64,000 nucleotides of DNA from Dehalococcoidia bacterium. Its GTDB lineage: Bacteria; Chloroflexota; Dehalococcoidia; Tepidiformales; Tepidiformaceae. This document shows, piece by piece, positions 11,288 to 53,945 of the stretch. The notes under the pieces are model-generated. The model was not told where the DNA came from and searched no databases. It saw only the letters and a list, made by a program, of their open reading frames with translations. How positions within the stretch are numbered: the stretch's first letter is position 1; each line of letters opens with the position of its first letter. The translations under genes were made by a program, and so were the position numbers. Location of the stretch: the NCBI GenBank assembly GCA_022827945.1, contig JAJEIT010000026.1:34191-98190 (forward strand), read 5' to 3'.

Positions 11288-11293
11288 CACTGG

Positions 11294-11395
11294 ACTCGGG
11301 TGACTGGCGAATACGCGGAGTACCGCGGGGGAGCTCGAGTAGTTTCAAGCATGGCCGCTCGCCTGGGCCGGTCCGTTCGTTCGGACGGGCCTTTT
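11294..11395 (+). promoter_or_regulatory. ZTP (pfl) riboswitch with terminator hairpin upstream of purH
   Basis: The leader carries the pfl/ZTP hallmarks in order: ACTCG at 11294-11298 pairing with CGAGT at 11336-11340 (P1); the GGGTGACTGGCGAA core; a P2 hairpin CGCGG/CCGCG at 11314-11318/11323-11327; GGGGGAGC; then the downstream CCGCTCGCCTGGGC pseudoknot domain at 11356-11368. A ten-base hairpin with one mismatch follows (11366-11375 with 11382-11391) plus TTTTG. ZTP riboswitches sense the 10-formyl-THF stress signal ZTP/AICAR and turn on one-carbon and purine genes, commonly by preventing termination. Position directly before purH fits exactly. Confidence 0.92.
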
Positions 11396-25025: not shown

Positions 25026-25136
25026 CGCCCTTATCCAGACGGGTGGAGGGAACCGGCCCCGTGAAGCCCGGGCAACCTGTCTCCCAGGAGACAAGGTGCC
25101 AAAGCCGGAATCCCCGAAGGGGAAACGATGAGAGCG
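25026..25136 (+). promoter_or_regulatory. SAM-I (S-box) riboswitch
   Basis: The leader carries S-box landmarks in order: CTTATC closing stem (25030-25035) pairing with GATGAG (25127-25132), GGTGGAGGGAACCGGCCC, GTGAAGCCCGGGCAACC, a P3 hairpin TGTCTCCCAGGAGACA, GGTGCCAAAGCCGG, and a P4 hairpin TCCCCGAAGGGGA. P1 extends to 25026 and 25136. SAM-I riboswitches switch off methionine and SAM synthesis genes when SAM is high. Its presence ahead of a threonine synthase-like gene indicates that the operon makes methionine or its precursor homocysteine. Confidence 0.93.
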
Positions 25137-25311: not shown

Positions 25312-26553
25312 ATGACCTACGCACAAAACCTGCGCTGCCGCGAATGCAGCCGCGACTACCCCCTCGCAGCGCTCCACGTCTGCGAGTTCTGTTTCGGACC
25401 GCTTGAGGTCGTCTACGACGACGACGGCATCAAGGCCGCCGTCTCCCGCGAGGCCATCGCCTCGCGCCCGGCCAACCTCTGGCGCTACCGCGAGTTTCTG
25501 CCCTGCGACGCAGACACCGCGATCAACATCGGGGCGGGCTTCACCCCCCTCATCCACGCGAAGAACCTTGGCAAGGCGCTGGGGCTCCCCAACCTCTACA
25601 TCAAGAACGACACCGCCAACCCGACGTGGTCGTTCAAGGACCGCGTTGTGGCCATCGCCAGCTCCCGTGCGCGGGAGCTCGGCTACGAGAAGCTCGCCTG
25701 CGCCAGCACCGGCAACCTCGCCAACAGCGTCAGCGCCCACGCCGCCGCCGCCGGCATGGAAGCGGTCGTCGTCATCCCCAACGACCTGGAGGCGGGCAAG
25801 GTGCTCGGTTCGAGCATCTACAGTCCCACCCTGGTGAAGGTCGCCGGGAACTACGACGCCGTGAACCGTCTCTGCGCCGAGCTCGCCGGCACGCGCAACT
25901 GGGCCTTCGTCAACGTCAACGTGCGCCCCTACTACGCCGAGGGCTCGAAGACCCTCGGCTACGAGGTCGCGGAGCAGCTCGGCTGGCGCGCCCCCGATCA
26001 CTGCGTCGTGCCCATCGCCAGCGGCTCGCTCTTCGTCAAGATACGCAAGGGCCTGAACGAATTCGCGAAGGCGGGTCTCATCGATGAGCCCCAGACCCGA
26101 ATGAGCGGCGCGCAGGCGACCGGCTGCTCCCCCGTCGCCACCGCCTGGGCCGAGGGCAGCATGAACTTCCGCCCCCAGCGGCCCGACACCATCGCCAAGT
26201 CGCTCGCCATCGGCAACCCCGCCGACGGCTACTACAGCCTCGTCCAGCTGAAGGACACGAACGGCGCCTGCGCCTCAGTCAACGACGACGAGATCGTCGC
26301 CGGCATGAAGCTGCTCGCCGAGACCGAGGGCATCTTCGCCGAGACCGCCGGCGGCGTGACCGTCGCCAGCGTCAAGCAGCTTGCCGCCGCCGGTAGAATC
26401 GACCCCGACGAGCTGGTGGTGGCCTTCATCACGGGCGCGGGGTTTAAGACCGCCGAGGCCGTCGCCGACAGCCTCGGCCCCGCCCTCGAAATCGACGCGA
26501 CCGTCGAGAGCTTCGAGGCCGCCTACGAGGATCGTGAGGGGGTTCCCGCCTGA
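25312..26553 (+). CDS. thrC: Threonine synthase-like PLP enzyme, probably O-phosphohomoserine-dependent homocysteine synthase (MetM-like)
   Basis: A 413-residue fold-type II PLP enzyme. An N-terminal zinc ribbon is formed by Cys9/Cys12 and Cys24/Cys27, the PLP Lys109 lies in NPTWSFKDR, and ACASTGNLANS is the phosphate-binding loop. By sequence it is threonine synthase, which converts O-phosphohomoserine to threonine. Three contexts argue for homocysteine formation instead, as in the MetM/MetO route described in Streptomyces: a SAM-I riboswitch upstream, an overlapping NIL-domain gene, and a MoaD-like sulfur carrier downstream. Whether it also makes threonine depends on whether another thrC exists in the genome. 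Confidence 0.9.
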   Translation: MTYAQNLRCRECSRDYPLAALHVCEFCFGPLEVVYDDDGIKAAVSREAIASRPANLWRYREFLPCDADTAINIGAGFTPLIHAKNLGKALGLPNLYIKNDTANPTWSFKDRVVAIASSRARELGYEKLACASTGNLANSVSAHAAAAGMEAVVVIPNDLEAGKVLGSSIYSPTLVKVAGNYDAVNRLCAELAGTRNWAFVNVNVRPYYAEGSKTLGYEVAEQLGWRAPDHCVVPIASGSLFVKIRKGLNEFAKAGLIDEPQTRMSGAQATGCSPVATAWAEGSMNFRPQRPDTIAKSLAIGNPADGYYSLVQLKDTNGACASVNDDEIVAGMKLLAETEGIFAETAGGVTVASVKQLAAAGRIDPDELVVAFITGAGFKTAEAVADSLGPALEIDATVESFEAAYEDREGVPA

Positions 26554-29118: not shown

Positions 29119-29477
29119 CGGTCTTTCAGCGCGCTACTGGACGACCAGGCCCCATTCTCAGGCTCCACGGACGGCTCCTCTGCTCCGCAGGGGTGGTGGT
29201 TGAAGTTGCGAAGGAGCTCGCGATCCAGCTCGGTCCGCGCAATCAGGAAGGGGTCTGGGGCCTGAGCTATTCCTACCACGCCCATGTTCCGGGGCGTGGC
29301 AATCTCCTGCGCTACGACAACTCGCACGGCTTCGGCGAATACCACCGCCACGAGTACGACTTCGCAACCCAGGAAGAGAAGCCCGTCGAGATGCTTACCC
29401 GCGAAGAGTTCCCCACCCTGATCGAGGTTCTCGACGAGGTCCAGGCCATGGCGCGGCGGCTCGGACTCGTCCGCTAG
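28983..29477 (+). CDS. TumE-like (DUF6516 family) toxin
   Basis: The conserved part (about 143 residues) begins IDRYVSAHERSLERHAFVLE. It contains two strands (RLHGRLLCSAGVVVEVAKEL), YSYHAHVPGRGNLLRYDNSHG and YHRHEYDF, matching the DUF6516/TumE toxin pattern with RYDN followed by HxRH. No canonical start lies near the domain boundary: the first in-frame start is TTG at 28983, 136 bases inside the antitoxin gene. A strong GGGGAGGAAGG at about 29027-29037 sits before the natural start region, so a one-base deletion near 29043-29048 is suspected. Confidence 0.68.
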   Translation: MRLADGRQPPQVPHRGGRHGWVAIDRYVSAHERSLERHAFVLEDLTVFQRATGRPGPILRLHGRLLCSAGVVVEVAKELAIQLGPRNQEGVWGLSYSYHAHVPGRGNLLRYDNSHGFGEYHRHEYDFATQEEKPVEMLTREEFPTLIEVLDEVQAMARRLGLVR

Positions 29478-30433
29478 CTGGCCGCGAGCCTCGCCCCGAT
29501 GAACGCCGTCACACGCTGCCGCGCCTGCTCCCCGATCGGGATCGGCGCCGCGTCGAAGCCGTGCGGGCCGCCGGGGTAGACCGCCAACTCGGACTCGTTG
29601 CCCGCCGCCAGCCAGCGTGCGTGCATGAACAATGAGTCGTCCAGCAGCGGGTCGTACGATCCCACCGTGAACAGCGCCGGCGGCATTTCGTGCAGGTGTG
29701 CGTTCAGCGGCGACACGTCGGGGTCGGTCGTATCCACGCCGGGGATGAACATCTCGTAGAAGCGGTCGATCGCAGCCCGGTCGAGACCCCCCTCGGGCCC
29801 CACGCCCAGCCGCTGGCTCGGCGTCATCGACAGGTCGTACGGACCGTACACCAGGTTCGCCCCGAGGAAGCCCGTGTAGCCGTGTCGGTCCCGCATCCGC
29901 AGGAGCGTGACTGCGGCCAGGTGCGCGCCCGCCGAACCGCCCCCGATCAGCAGCCGCTCCGTCCCGAACTCCGCCGCCGCGTTCTCGACCAGCCACACCG
30001 CCGCGGCCTCGCAGTCGTCCGGACCGGCGGGGTACGGGTGCTCCGGCGCGAGCCGGTAGTCGACGCTCACCGTCGCGAGGCCGAACCCCTCGACCAGCGC
30101 CAGGTTGGCCTGGTCGCTCATCCGCGCCCGGCCGATCACCCAGCCGCCCCCGTGGATGTCGAGGTAAACGCCCGCCGGCTCCCGCCCCTCGGGCCGGATT
30201 ATGCGGATCGACGCGCCCTCGCCCATCCCCGGCACGACGCGATCCTCCGCCCGCTCGACGGGCGGGGGCACGGGAAACGCGCCGCCGCCCTCGTCCATCA
30301 GCCGCCGCAGCTCCACGAGGTCGGTGTTCTCCATGGAGGGCATCTGCTCGCGCATCGCCATCGAAGCCGCCACGAACTCGCGCGTCTCCTGGCTGATCGC
30401 GTCCTCGCCGAAGACGCTCGAATCGAAGCTCAT
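29474..30433 (-). CDS. Alpha/beta hydrolase (esterase/lipase, HSL-like family)
   Basis: A 319-residue hydrolase. The oxyanion motif HGGGW lies at residues 94-98, the nucleophile is Ser167 in GGGSAGA, the acid is probably Asp in SYDPLLDD and the His is in GGPHGFD. This is the hormone-sensitive lipase-like family that cleaves short-chain esters. The ATG at 30433 is the family-like start; upstream extension has no support. The gene lies 11 bp after the AhpD-like selenoprotein gene in the same direction, so they are probably co-transcribed. It is convergent with the TumE-like gene and overlaps it by four bases. Confidence 0.9.
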   Translation of the reverse strand: MSFDSSVFGEDAISQETREFVAASMAMREQMPSMENTDLVELRRLMDEGGGAFPVPPPVERAEDRVVPGMGEGASIRIIRPEGREPAGVYLDIHGGGWVIGRARMSDQANLALVEGFGLATVSVDYRLAPEHPYPAGPDDCEAAAVWLVENAAAEFGTERLLIGGGSAGAHLAAVTLLRMRDRHGYTGFLGANLVYGPYDLSMTPSQRLGVGPEGGLDRAAIDRFYEMFIPGVDTTDPDVSPLNAHLHEMPPALFTVGSYDPLLDDSLFMHARWLAAGNESELAVYPGGPHGFDAAPIPIGEQARQRVTAFIGARLAAS

Positions 30434-30444
30434 GGCGGTGCTCC

Positions 30445-30954
30445 TCAGGTCGGTTTCAGGCCGAACGAGTGAATCAGGCGCCCGTAGCCCAGATAGCTCA
30501 CGACCGCCCACCCGATTTCGAGGATCTGCTCCTCGGTGAAGTGCTCCCCCAGCTCCTCGAACAGCTGGCCGTCGATGTTCGCGTGGTCGACGAACAGCCG
30601 CTCGGCGTAGTGGAACGCCGCCTTCTCCGCCTCGCTGAAGTCCTGGTCGCCCCACGTCGCAATCTTGCCGACGGTGCTCTCCTCGAGGGTGTCACCTTCC
30701 CCTGACAGGGGAAGCCGGGCGGCCTGTCAGAAGTCGCAGGCGTTCAGCTGCGCGACCCGCAGCCGCACCATCTCCTTCAGTCGCGCCGAGACCGCCCCGT
30801 CCCGGATCAGCGGCCGGTACCACTCGTTCCACCGCTGGAACAGCTCCGCGTTGTGCCCGAACACGCGCGTGAAGTCGTCGCCACGGCCGCGCAGCCCCTC
30901 CGGGAGCTCGTCGTCGGTCGCCAGTCGGATGTGTGGGGAAAGCGTATCAGTCAT
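30445..30954 (-). CDS. AhpD-like/carboxymuconolactone decarboxylase family selenoprotein (in-frame UGA = Sec76)
   Basis: Reading from the ATG at 30954 reaches TGA at 30727-30729 after 75 codons, in VRLRVAQLNACDF. Read as selenocysteine, the frame continues unbroken to a second TGA at 30445-30447, giving 169 residues. The second part (EKAAFHYAERLF, EEQILEIGWAVVSYLGYGRL) is normal AhpD/CMD sequence. The UGA occupies the second position of the redox CxxC motif: Cys73-Asp-Phe-Sec76. A SECIS-like hairpin follows 19 bases later. AhpD-like proteins are thiol-dependent peroxide-reducing or hydroperoxidase partners, and selenoprotein members have been reported. A nonsense-mutated pseudogene is the alternative. 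No selA/selB/selC is visible here. Confidence 0.85.
30696..30729 (-). promoter_or_regulatory. bSECIS-like hairpin with its UGA codon
   Basis: Downstream of the UGA (30727-30729), on the minus strand, CTTCCCC (30714 to 30708) pairs perfectly with GGGGAAG (30702 to 30696) around the five-base loop TGTCA. The distance from UGA to the loop is 19 bases, inside the reported 16-37 window, and a G occupies the second loop position. These are the general criteria for bacterial SECIS elements recognised by SelB. Confidence 0.75.
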
Positions 30955-30970: not shown

Positions 30971-32644
30971 CTACCCCAGGTACGCCGACCCCGACCGACG
31001 GCCCTTCGGGTCCGTCAGCACGTTCACCAGCGCGACCGTGTCCGCCGCCAGCGCCTCCTGCACCGCCGGTATGATGTCCGCCGGATCCTCGACGCGGCGC
31101 GCCCAGCCGCCCACCATCTCCACCGTCTTCTCGTAGGCGACGGGGAGGAGGGCGGCGATGGGGGGCGCGTCCGGCGCGAACGTCCGATCCTGGATCGAGT
31201 GCCCCGCGATGCCCCCGTTGTTTGACACGACGATGACGACGTTGCACCCGATGCGCGCCGCCGTCTCCACCTCCATGGCCGCGGCGCCGAAGGCGTAGTC
31301 GCCGAGCACCGCCACCACCTGCTGGTCCGGCCGCGCCAGCTTCGCCCCGATCGCGTACGGGAGGCCCGTGCCCATGCAGCCCGTCGTGCCCGAGTTGAGT
31401 CGCAGCCGCGACCCGAAGCTGGGCATGACCGCCCGCGCGACGCCCATCGTCAGCTCCGCGTCGACCGTTACAGTCGCATCCCGGTCGAGGCAGTCGCGCA
31501 CGTCGCGGAGCAGGCGGAAGTGGTTGATGGGCACCTCGTCCGAGGCCATCGCCTCCGCCGAGCCCGCCTCGTTCCGGTCGCGCGCTTCCTGCAGCGTGCC
31601 GACCCAGTCGCTGCTCGCGGTGCGCAGGCTGCGCCCGTCGAGCAGCCCGTTGAGCTGGTCCACGGCGACTGCGCAGTCCGCCACGATGCCGACCTCGACG
31701 TCCGCGCCGCTGTAGAACTCCTCCGCCACGATGTCGATATGCGCCAGGCGCGCTCCTTCGGCGAAGCGCGGCGGCTTCCCGAACTGGAACACCCAGTTGA
31801 AGCGCCCCCCGACCATGAGCACCGCGTCCGCCCCGCCCAGCGCCGCCGAGCGCGCCGCGTTCATGAACATCGGGTGGTCGTCGGGGATCGCGCCCCGCCC
31901 CATCGGCGACGACACGAACGGGATGCCCCGGTCGACGAGCCGCTGCAGCGGCAGCCCCGCCTCCGCCCAGCCCGCGCCCTTCCCCATGATGACGAGCGGC
32001 CGCTCCGCCTCCGCCAGCATGTCCGCGACCGCTTCGAGGGCGGCCGGGTCCGGGTGGGGCCGCGAGATCTCGGGCTCGCTCGTCCGCCACTCAACGTTCT
32101 CTTCCTCGAACGGGGTGCGGATCAGCTCAGCGGGGAAGTCTAGGTAGACCGCCCCGGGGCGCCCGTTCAGGGCGCGCCCCAGCGCGAGGTGCACGTACTC
32201 GGCGATGCGCGCCTGGCTGTCGACCTGCGTCGCCCACTTGCACGCGGGCGCCGCGAACGCGACCTGGTCCGCCTCCTGGAAGGCGCCCAGCCCGCGCTGG
32301 TTGCCCGCCGAGGAGCCGCCCAGCACCACCAGTGGCATCGCGCTCTCCGTCGCCACGTACATCGGCGTGACCGCGTTCGTCAGCGCCGGCCCCGACCCGA
32401 CCACGAGCACCCCCGGCTTCCCCCGCGCCCAGCCCCAGGCCGAGGCGGCGAAGCCCGCCGACACCTCGTGCCGGCAGTTCACCACCGTGATCCCCTCCCG
32501 CTCCATCGCCGCCATGACCTCGATCATGGGTCCCGCCACCACCCCGAAGGCCGTGTCGATGCCGGCCGCTTTCAGCTGCCGCGCGATGATCTGTCCGCCG
32601 TTCAGTTCTGCCACGCCGTGCCCTCCGCTTGAGGTGGCCGCCAT
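30971..32644 (-). CDS. Thiamine pyrophosphate-dependent enzyme (2-hydroxyacyl-CoA lyase/oxalyl-CoA decarboxylase-like)
   Basis: A 557-residue TPP enzyme with the acetolactate synthase-like three-domain layout. Glu60 (NCRHEVSAGFAA) is the TPP-activating Glu, GSGPALTNAV is in the PYR domain, and GDYAFGAAAMEVETA…VIVVSNNGGI is the TPP/Mg motif. VGGRFNWVFQFGKPP resembles the CoA-binding linker of oxalyl-CoA decarboxylase and 2-hydroxyacyl-CoA lyase rather than acetolactate synthase. It would cleave or decarboxylate a 2-hydroxy- or 2-oxoacyl-CoA. It lies 16 bp upstream of the AhpD-like gene in the same direction. Confidence 0.87.
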   Translation of the reverse strand: MAATSSGGHGVAELNGGQIIARQLKAAGIDTAFGVVAGPMIEVMAAMEREGITVVNCRHEVSAGFAASAWGWARGKPGVLVVGSGPALTNAVTPMYVATESAMPLVVLGGSSAGNQRGLGAFQEADQVAFAAPACKWATQVDSQARIAEYVHLALGRALNGRPGAVYLDFPAELIRTPFEEENVEWRTSEPEISRPHPDPAALEAVADMLAEAERPLVIMGKGAGWAEAGLPLQRLVDRGIPFVSSPMGRGAIPDDHPMFMNAARSAALGGADAVLMVGGRFNWVFQFGKPPRFAEGARLAHIDIVAEEFYSGADVEVGIVADCAVAVDQLNGLLDGRSLRTASSDWVGTLQEARDRNEAGSAEAMASDEVPINHFRLLRDVRDCLDRDATVTVDAELTMGVARAVMPSFGSRLRLNSGTTGCMGTGLPYAIGAKLARPDQQVVAVLGDYAFGAAAMEVETAARIGCNVVIVVSNNGGIAGHSIQDRTFAPDAPPIAALLPVAYEKTVEMVGGWARRVEDPADIIPAVQEALAADTVALVNVLTDPKGRRSGSAYLG

Positions 32645-53204: not shown

Positions 53205-53945
53205 GTGGTCGTGGAAACGTTAGATGAGGGGCCATTCAAGGCCGCGTGGCGGGAACTCGAAAGCCAAGTCTTGGAGCTGTGTGCCTACTACGATCCCCGT
53301 GCTCCCCAACAGTGGTTACGCACCCAGATGGGGCCTGGCGGGAACCGTATGCGGGAGCTGTCTGGCTGGATATTTGGAACGGTGCAGCGTGCTGTTGAGA
53401 ACGAAGATCCGTTCACACTTGGGATTCTGGAGAGCTGGGAAGGCTTGAAGCGGCGAAGGAACGAGTTGGAACACGCGATAGCGTCCGACGCTGGGCTTGT
53501 CTACCACAACTCCCAGCAGGTGCGAGGGTCATACCACTGGACCGCCGAGAGACTGGATGAGCTAACCAACGACACGCTCGCACTGACTAGCCGTGTTGAG
53601 GGGTTCTTAGCCTTCGCCAATCTGGCGAGAATGGACTTGGAGCTAGGTGGTGCTCTGTCGCTTGGATCGGGTAAAGCACACATGGGAGGCCACCGACCCT
53701 CGGAGTGCGAATACTGCCGAGCGCAATTCGACGCATTGTCGAGGAACCTCATCGACGAGATGCTCGAGAAGAGAGTCGTCCCCTCGCAGGAGGAGTGGCG
53801 GTCAATCGTAGACAACTGGGGTTTCGATATGACCGCAGAAGAGACCGAGCTCGCGGTCCGTGAGAGGACTCAGAAACGGGTTGAGCAGGACAAGGAGGTC
53901 GCTGAACTCCTGAAGGGCTGGGGAGAGGGCTCCGGTGAAGGTTGA
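53205..53945 (+). CDS. Hypothetical protein with CxxC motif
   Basis: A 246-residue protein from a GTG start (another in-frame GTG lies two codons later). It is mostly helical, with LELCAYYDPRAPQQWL at the front, a central EGLKRRRNELEHAI segment that resembles nucleotidyltransferase-associated or HEPN-like helices, and SECEYCRAQFDALSRNLIDE near residue 170, a CxxC pair. The C-terminus is charged coiled coil. No family is firmly recognised. Low GC for the region indicates transfer. Confidence 0.65.
   Translation: MVVETLDEGPFKAAWRELESQVLELCAYYDPRAPQQWLRTQMGPGGNRMRELSGWIFGTVQRAVENEDPFTLGILESWEGLKRRRNELEHAIASDAGLVYHNSQQVRGSYHWTAERLDELTNDTLALTSRVEGFLAFANLARMDLELGGALSLGSGKAHMGGHRPSECEYCRAQFDALSRNLIDEMLEKRVVPSQEEWRSIVDNWGFDMTAEETELAVRERTQKRVEQDKEVAELLKGWGEGSGEG

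Follow-up and report, generated by a model that had tools for sequence, protein, structure and literature searches.

Selenoproteins of the carboxymuconolactone decarboxylase (CMD) and AhpD fold have been on record since 2005, when a CMD-domain family with selenocysteine (Sec, U) in a CxxU motif and four member sequences was listed for the Sargasso Sea set (PMC1088965). The Global Ocean Sampling (GOS) set includes an entry named AhpD-like 2 (pfam02627, CxxU) with 70 sequences (PMC2398784), and a 2026 review lists one AhpD-like and one CMD-like CxxU selenoprotein (PMC13188914). The AhpD-like family is described as having a CxxC motif, a proton-relay Glu 12 residues before the first Cys and a His four residues after the second, and gamma-carboxymuconolactone decarboxylase as having no CxxC motif (PMC3141380). 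The gene considered here, at 30954-30445, lies in a stretch of 64,000 nt (the window) from a Dehalococcoidia bacterium (assembly GCA_022827945.1, contig JAJEIT010000026.1, positions 34,191 to 98,190). It is predicted to encode a CMD/AhpD-fold selenoprotein in which the UGA at codon 76 is likely decoded as Sec by the SelA, SelB, SelD and tRNA-Sec of the same genome, a reading to which a probability of roughly 0.93 is assigned. A preliminary description of the locus had proposed an AhpD-like selenoprotein and stated that such proteins are known from metagenomes; the reports cited above bear this out, and the window protein is in kind not new.

The read-through frame

On the minus strand, an ATG at 30954 opens a frame of 75 sense codons, which reaches a TGA at 30729-30727 directly after ...NACDF. 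Past this codon the frame continues for 93 sense codons to a TGA stop at 30447-30445, and the sequence is thus as first described, with gene calling ending after 75 residues and the frame running on. The read-through product has 169 residues, and the Pfam CMD domain (PF02627) spans the TGA, covering residues 37-117 with 35.9 bits (cut-off 23). The internal TGA is the single disruption of the frame. The window holds 442 TGA codons flanked on both sides by 25 or more open codons, and the one at 30729-30727 ranks first among them by the coding score of both sides.

Conservation of codon 76

Close orthologues, defined by an E value below 1e-70 and at least 67% identity, were found in 16 of a sample of 60 related genomes, the source genome included, and in each of them a single TGA is present, occupying codon 76. 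At E 1e-20, screening of the order as a whole (38 genomes) added one distant homologue without a stop to these 16. The same TGA is seen in eight loci from GTDB contigs, of which four are titled Dehalococcoidia, three Chloroflexi and one only bacterium; several of them belong to genomes already in the 60-genome set.

Among the best 120 of 401 homologues from a profile search, the 107 with at least 140 residues all have Cys73, Cys at position 76, Glu61 and Arg80, so the UGA does fall where the second redox Cys belongs. Cys73 and Glu61 are likewise invariant in a smaller alignment (A3) of nine window or locus sequences with 36 homologues chosen by hand. The remaining 13 of the 120 are short: seven end just before codon 76 and six consist solely of the part that follows it, the pattern left when gene calling splits a selenoprotein. 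Separately, a database CMD protein of 92 residues (P0048, 25 member sequences, named Chloroflexi) ends in ...QLNDCAV where the Sec codon would be, and is probably another truncated selenoprotein subfamily.

A wider CMD set comprises 103 sequences, namely 97 distinct rows from the genomes (identical rows dropped) and six outside homologues from the profile search. TGA occurs in 62 of these, in every case in one and the same alignment column, where 15 further sequences, including the six outside homologues, have Cys and 26 have another residue. Each of these 26 shares its stretch with a CMD gene of the Sec or Cys kind. The sequence beyond the TGA in the window gene also behaves as coding sequence, since the ratio of nonsynonymous to synonymous change between it and seven relatives is 0.09-0.22 after the TGA and 0.09-0.21 before it; the in-frame UGA is followed by conserved protein, as in a selenoprotein.

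Selenocysteine machinery and its co-occurrence with TGA-bearing genes

The genome that contains the window (G000) is a 2.85-Mb assembly of 99 contigs that is 95% complete. It has a tRNA-Sec match of 71.1 bits (gathering score 47), which ARAGORN reports as tRNA-SeC with anticodon tca (UCA), as well as SelA (518 bits, cut-off 267.9), SelB (301 bits, cut-off 242.25) and SelD (343 bits, cut-off 125). All four exceed their cut-offs, and the expectation that this lineage encodes Sec machinery is therefore confirmed. The SelD gene (G000:C22:122333-123268) has one internal TGA, in frame in the motif TGCGGUASK, which makes it likely that selenophosphate synthetase is itself a selenoprotein here; a table in the GOS paper marks SelD as often being one (PMC2398784). 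None of the three molybdopterin oxidoreductase matches in the genome has a TGA, so there is no Sec formate dehydrogenase among them. A search for GrdB and PrdB gave no matches in this genome, and likewise none in the control genomes. The selenoprotein count for the genome is a lower bound, with the SelW, peroxiredoxin and thioredoxin families lying outside the search.

A tRNA-Sec match of more than 60 bits is found in 43 of the 60 genomes; this line was our own choice, and the scores show a gap from 63.1 to 51.9 bits. The tRNA-Sec family search was positive in all 14 control genomes. TGA-bearing CMD genes are present in 22 of the 43 genomes above the line, versus one of the 17 below it. The weaker matches checked in seven of these 17 (four of genus g13, G048, G052 and G010) are all tRNA-Ser or tRNA-Arg according to ARAGORN. 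In genus g13, which has no strong tRNA-Sec match, the counterpart of the 'VTDCGYUKNVR' selenoprotein reads 'VTACGFCRQVR', with Cys for Sec, in all four genomes of the set. A Cys clade of this type offers a natural Sec-to-Cys comparison for assessing the benefit of selenium in the CMD fold.

The hairpin downstream of the UGA

Synonymous identity in the gene peaks at codons 80-86, where it reaches 0.86, more than in any other run of seven codons (mean 0.59 per codon), and the value for codons 80-87 lies above that of random codon sets, with p of 0.002. A bacterial selenocysteine insertion sequence (SECIS) hairpin is predicted at this peak (Table 1). The 7-bp stem with a UGUCA loop in the preliminary description is present; the distance of 19 bases given there fits the loop, which begins 20 nt after the UGA, and not the stem, which begins after 13 nt. 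RNAfold adds one pair, giving 8 bp and a GUC loop. The hairpin is intact or near-intact in 15 of the 16 orthologues, and in the other (L039) an altered sequence again forms a perfect 8-bp stem. It thus lies just past the UGA and has a small loop with a G, a common feature of bacterial SECIS elements (PMC1088965). Its position and loop agree with the bacterial SECIS rules to which it had been matched, and the synonymous conservation peak supports it.

By itself, the hairpin is only moderately unusual. Among the 1322 TGA triplets of the window, 5.3% are associated with a stem of at least 8 bp and an early G in the loop if G-U pairs are allowed, and three if the stem is limited to Watson-Crick pairs, the hairpin at 30714-30696 being one of the three. 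When the 20 residues are recoded by local codon usage (20,000 draws), such a stem arises in 8.3% of draws with G-U pairs and 1.8% with Watson-Crick pairs.

Interpretation and alternative explanations

If the selenoprotein reading is right, SelB carrying Sec-tRNA would bind the hairpin just after the UGA, codon 76 would be read as Sec instead of stop, and the second UGA, at 30447-30445, would end the protein. Sec76 would then be the attacking nucleophile and reduce a substrate through its selenolate, with Cys73 resolving it as a selenenylsulphide and regeneration coming from a thiol or a thioredoxin-type donor; Glu61 would be a likely proton relay. A first guess for the substrate would be a hydroperoxide or another electrophile from the neighboring thiamine diphosphate (ThDP)-dependent carboligase/decarboxylase and esterase-type hydrolase.

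Several points weigh against this reading or against the enzyme role attached to it. The folding energy of the hairpin is ordinary in comparison with shuffled sequences (z -0.51, and 0.43 for a 56-nt stretch), and fold energy was rejected as evidence for it. Because of this and of the 5.3% background of comparable stems, the hairpin convinces by its conservation and not on its own; the strong evidence for selenocysteine is conservation, not fold energy. When 53 distinct downstream stretches are pooled, 69% of cells pair at the fixed register of the hairpin (against 40 to 55% when the register is moved by one to four bases), the figure being no higher because the stems of some paralogues are shifted by two or three bases. 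The Fisher test of the co-occurrence described above (p of 0.001) counts related genomes as independent, and the 60-bit line on which it depends was set by ourselves; at the Rfam cut-off of 47 bits, 49 of the 60 genomes pass. In G010, which is 78% complete, TGA-bearing CMD genes are present at C22:9127 and C235:7027, and no tRNA-Sec match exceeds 60 bits; the best match of this genome in that search is a tRNA-Arg (ARAGORN). As regards the enzyme, the proton-relay His of AhpD is replaced by Arg80, and since this Arg is invariant, an AhpD-like peroxidase activity is a guess. The label AhpD-like consequently holds for the fold, for the redox pair (as CxxU) and for the spacing from the invariant Glu61 to Cys73, and fails for the His. 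Membership in gamma-carboxymuconolactone decarboxylase was rejected on account of the CxxU pair.

The alternative that survives best retains selenocysteine and changes the chemistry. The protein would not be a peroxidase; it would be a reductive dehalogenase-like or other electrophile-reducing CMD-fold enzyme, like the debrominase Bmp8, which shares the CMD/AhpD fold and the CxxC pair and has 16-17% identity over the fold. However, 6k40, 2oyo, 3c1l and PA0269, also of the AhpD fold, are equally good or better structural matches, the Deinococcus radiodurans AhpD-type protein 6k40 having 21% identity over aligned residues, and orthologues occur also in a bin labelled ALOHA, by name a plankton sample. 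This alternative as a whole is considered unlikely, although not far-fetched.

It might also be proposed that the UGA is read through without Sec, by a near-cognate tRNA or following a lineage-wide reassignment of TGA, with the production of short and long forms. Read-through of UGA is common in biology, which counts in favor of this explanation, and the short form would be a 75-residue N-terminal piece. However, such a product would be without most of the fold, and TGA also serves as the terminal stop in eight of the 16 orthologues, that of the window included, so TGA has not been reassigned wholesale. Given that all 62 TGA-bearing CMD sequences have the codon in the Cys column, and that the genome has the full Sec machinery, this explanation is left with a slim chance.

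A nonsense pseudogene, in which the TGA would be an ordinary premature stop and the 3' part would be decaying, fits the halt in gene calling and the separate storage of the two halves in public protein sets, but is very unlikely, to the point of being negligible, because purifying selection is similar before and after the TGA, the frame has a single stop, and all 16 orthologues, the most distant at 67% identity, have TGA at this codon. The 16 orthologues, with TGA, and the 107 longer homologues, with Cys, show neither the unrelated residue nor the lost 3' region that the preliminary description had named as signs of a pseudogene.

CMD paralogues and tandem pairs

The selenoprotein predicted in the window has relatives in the same genome, where there are eight PF02627 matches, five of them with a TGA: the window gene and the genes at C75:28329, C7:61257, C19:43487 and C34:12915. 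The C75 paralogue (ACDFUAPAR; G000:C75:28254-28817, L071:3755-4318) ends 5.4 kb before the window and is followed by AMP-binding (acyl-CoA ligase-type) and enoyl-CoA hydratase-type genes. The C7 paralogue (GCRYUIPAR; G000:C7:61224-61598, L083) is near a Cyclase-family gene, on the contig that also has the tRNA-Sec.

The other two belong to tandem pairs. At G000:C19:43289-44327 (L094:3290-4328), a TGA-bearing CMD gene (DCGYUKNVR) directly follows a partner (DCEAE) that reads C-E-A-E, with Glu at the second redox position, and the pair lies beside a Rieske/ring-hydroxylating oxygenase. At G000:C34:12588-13621 (L100:3089-4122), the frame of the TGA-bearing gene (QCFTUMSLR) overlaps by four bases with that of a partner reading D-D-R-E (ADDRE), which has no Cys at the redox site, and the pair adjoins a major facilitator superfamily (MFS) transporter. 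Pairs of the C19 type are found in 12 genomes and those of the C34 type in nine. In genus g13, the degenerate partner is still located beside the Cys form (L046 to L049).

With at least five Sec-CMD paralogues in varied catabolic neighborhoods and two conserved tandem pairs, it is possible to imagine CMD-fold selenoproteins as a standing part of the catabolism of this Chloroflexota family, the working enzyme being a heteromer of a Sec subunit and a dead one, and the substrates perhaps including halogenated compounds. This proposal is tentative and on balance doubtful. If true, it would also account for the frequent presence of selA and selB among sponge symbionts, as described in a sponge study (PMC5649159).

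Neighboring genes and other features of the window

Table 1. Features of the CMD locus (window coordinates)
Feature	Position	Strand	Basis or remark
CMD/AhpD-fold gene, 169 residues with TGA read through	30445..30954 (including stop)	-	Frame, Pfam and orthologues
Predicted selenocysteine codon, codon 76, second position of Cys73-x-x-Sec76	30727..30729	-	TGA in 16/16 orthologues; Cys in 107/107 listed homologues
Cys73 codon, likely resolving Cys of CxxU	30736..30738	-	Invariant in alignment A3 and in 107/107 listed homologues
Glu61 codon, spacing as for the proton-relay Glu of AhpD-like PA0269	30772..30774	-	Invariant; role as described in PMC3141380
Predicted bacterial SECIS hairpin, stem CUUCCCC/GGGGAAG (7 bp), loop UGUCA with G as second base	30696..30714	-	Synonymous conservation peak at codons 80-86
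ThDP-dependent enzyme (oxalyl-CoA decarboxylase / 2-hydroxyacyl-CoA lyase / acetolactate synthase superfamily), upstream	30971..32644	-	Ends 16 nt before CMD start
Alpha/beta hydrolase (Abhydrolase_3), downstream	29474..30433	-	Starts 11 nt after CMD stop

The CMD gene is flanked by a ThDP-dependent enzyme and a hydrolase, and all three are on the same strand. The hydrolase adjoins the CMD orthologue in nine of nine genomes of the genus, and the ThDP gene is found on the other side in eight of nine when 1.5-kb flanks are used, with a longer gap in some; in the ninth (L032), it was seen with a 3-kb flank at L021, which is taken as the same genome on account of its contig position. Beyond the genus, again with 1.5-kb flanks, the ThDP gene is present in one of seven cases and the hydrolase in none of seven. 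The models nearest to the ThDP enzyme are those for oxalyl-CoA decarboxylase (367 bits against a cut-off of 557), with 2-hydroxyacyl-CoA lyase and acetolactate synthase models further behind, and none of the 25 matches shown reaches its NCBIfam cut-off. Since even the nearest model falls below its cut-off, the reaction of this enzyme is not settled. Of the two neighbors named in the preliminary description, the hydrolase stands, and the CoA-lyase is only partly apt, given the nearer oxalyl-CoA decarboxylase models, themselves below cut-off.

Elsewhere in the window, three of the next four codons in the TGA ranking appear by eye to be normal ends of genes, with another gene starting after them. 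The codon ranked fourth, at 53943 on the plus strand, has coding-like frames on both sides and no Pfam match on either; this one apart, no further selenoprotein is convincing among the 442 ranked codons. A listing of 101 long read-through frames in the window was set aside as mostly wrong-frame noise by its look. Two riboswitches were also detected, both on the plus strand: an S-adenosylmethionine (SAM) riboswitch at 25028-25134 (76.4 bits), upstream of a pyridoxal phosphate (PLP)-dependent gene of the PALP family at 25312 that is threonine-synthase-like by eye, and a ZMP/ZTP riboswitch at 11290-11375 (57.1 bits), with a long open frame following at about 11423.

Comparison with known systems

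The window protein belongs to no NCBIfam family tested, as it is below the cut-off of every model matched: NF053654 (45.5 bits, cut-off 310), TIGR01926 (29.4, cut-off 81.8), TIGR00778 (26.1, cut-off 27.8) and TIGR04169 (21.4, cut-off 120). The best of these, NF053654, is for YciW-related (seleno)protein, a name that marks selenoprotein members. Five paralogue proteins were tested as well: for four it was again the best match, and one matched nothing. At this score, it is a distant relative of which the window protein is not a member. The AhpD-like protein PA0269 and Mycobacterium tuberculosis AhpD share with the window protein the two-helix CxxC motif, the Glu 12 residues before the first Cys and an all-helical fold, whereas the window protein has Sec for the second Cys and Arg80 for the proton-relay His.

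We infer from bin names and from the sponge study (PMC5649159) that the lineage is sponge-associated and SAR202-like. According to that study, most symbiont bins have SelA together with SelB, whereas most of their close relatives lack them (PMC5649159). The predicted CMD selenoproteins suggest clients for these genes. Among the matches listed in a literature search, largely without subscription journals, no paper has the selenoproteins of SAR202-type Chloroflexota as its subject, and the word 'selenoprotein' does not occur in the SAR202 papers listed. Gene catalogues can easily overlook the CMD enzyme, because public protein sets split it at the UGA.

The closest described systems are the Sargasso Sea CMD selenoprotein and GOS AhpD-like 2, which share PF02627, Sec as the second residue of the CxxU pair and an origin in marine metagenomes (PMC1088965, PMC2398784). 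A bacterial SECIS-type hairpin, as predicted here, is reported for the Sargasso families (PMC1088965). These families are compared with the window protein by description only; here, in contrast, the genome, the Sec machinery and the gene neighbors are known, and the CMD selenoproteins of the metagenome era are thereby tied to an organism.
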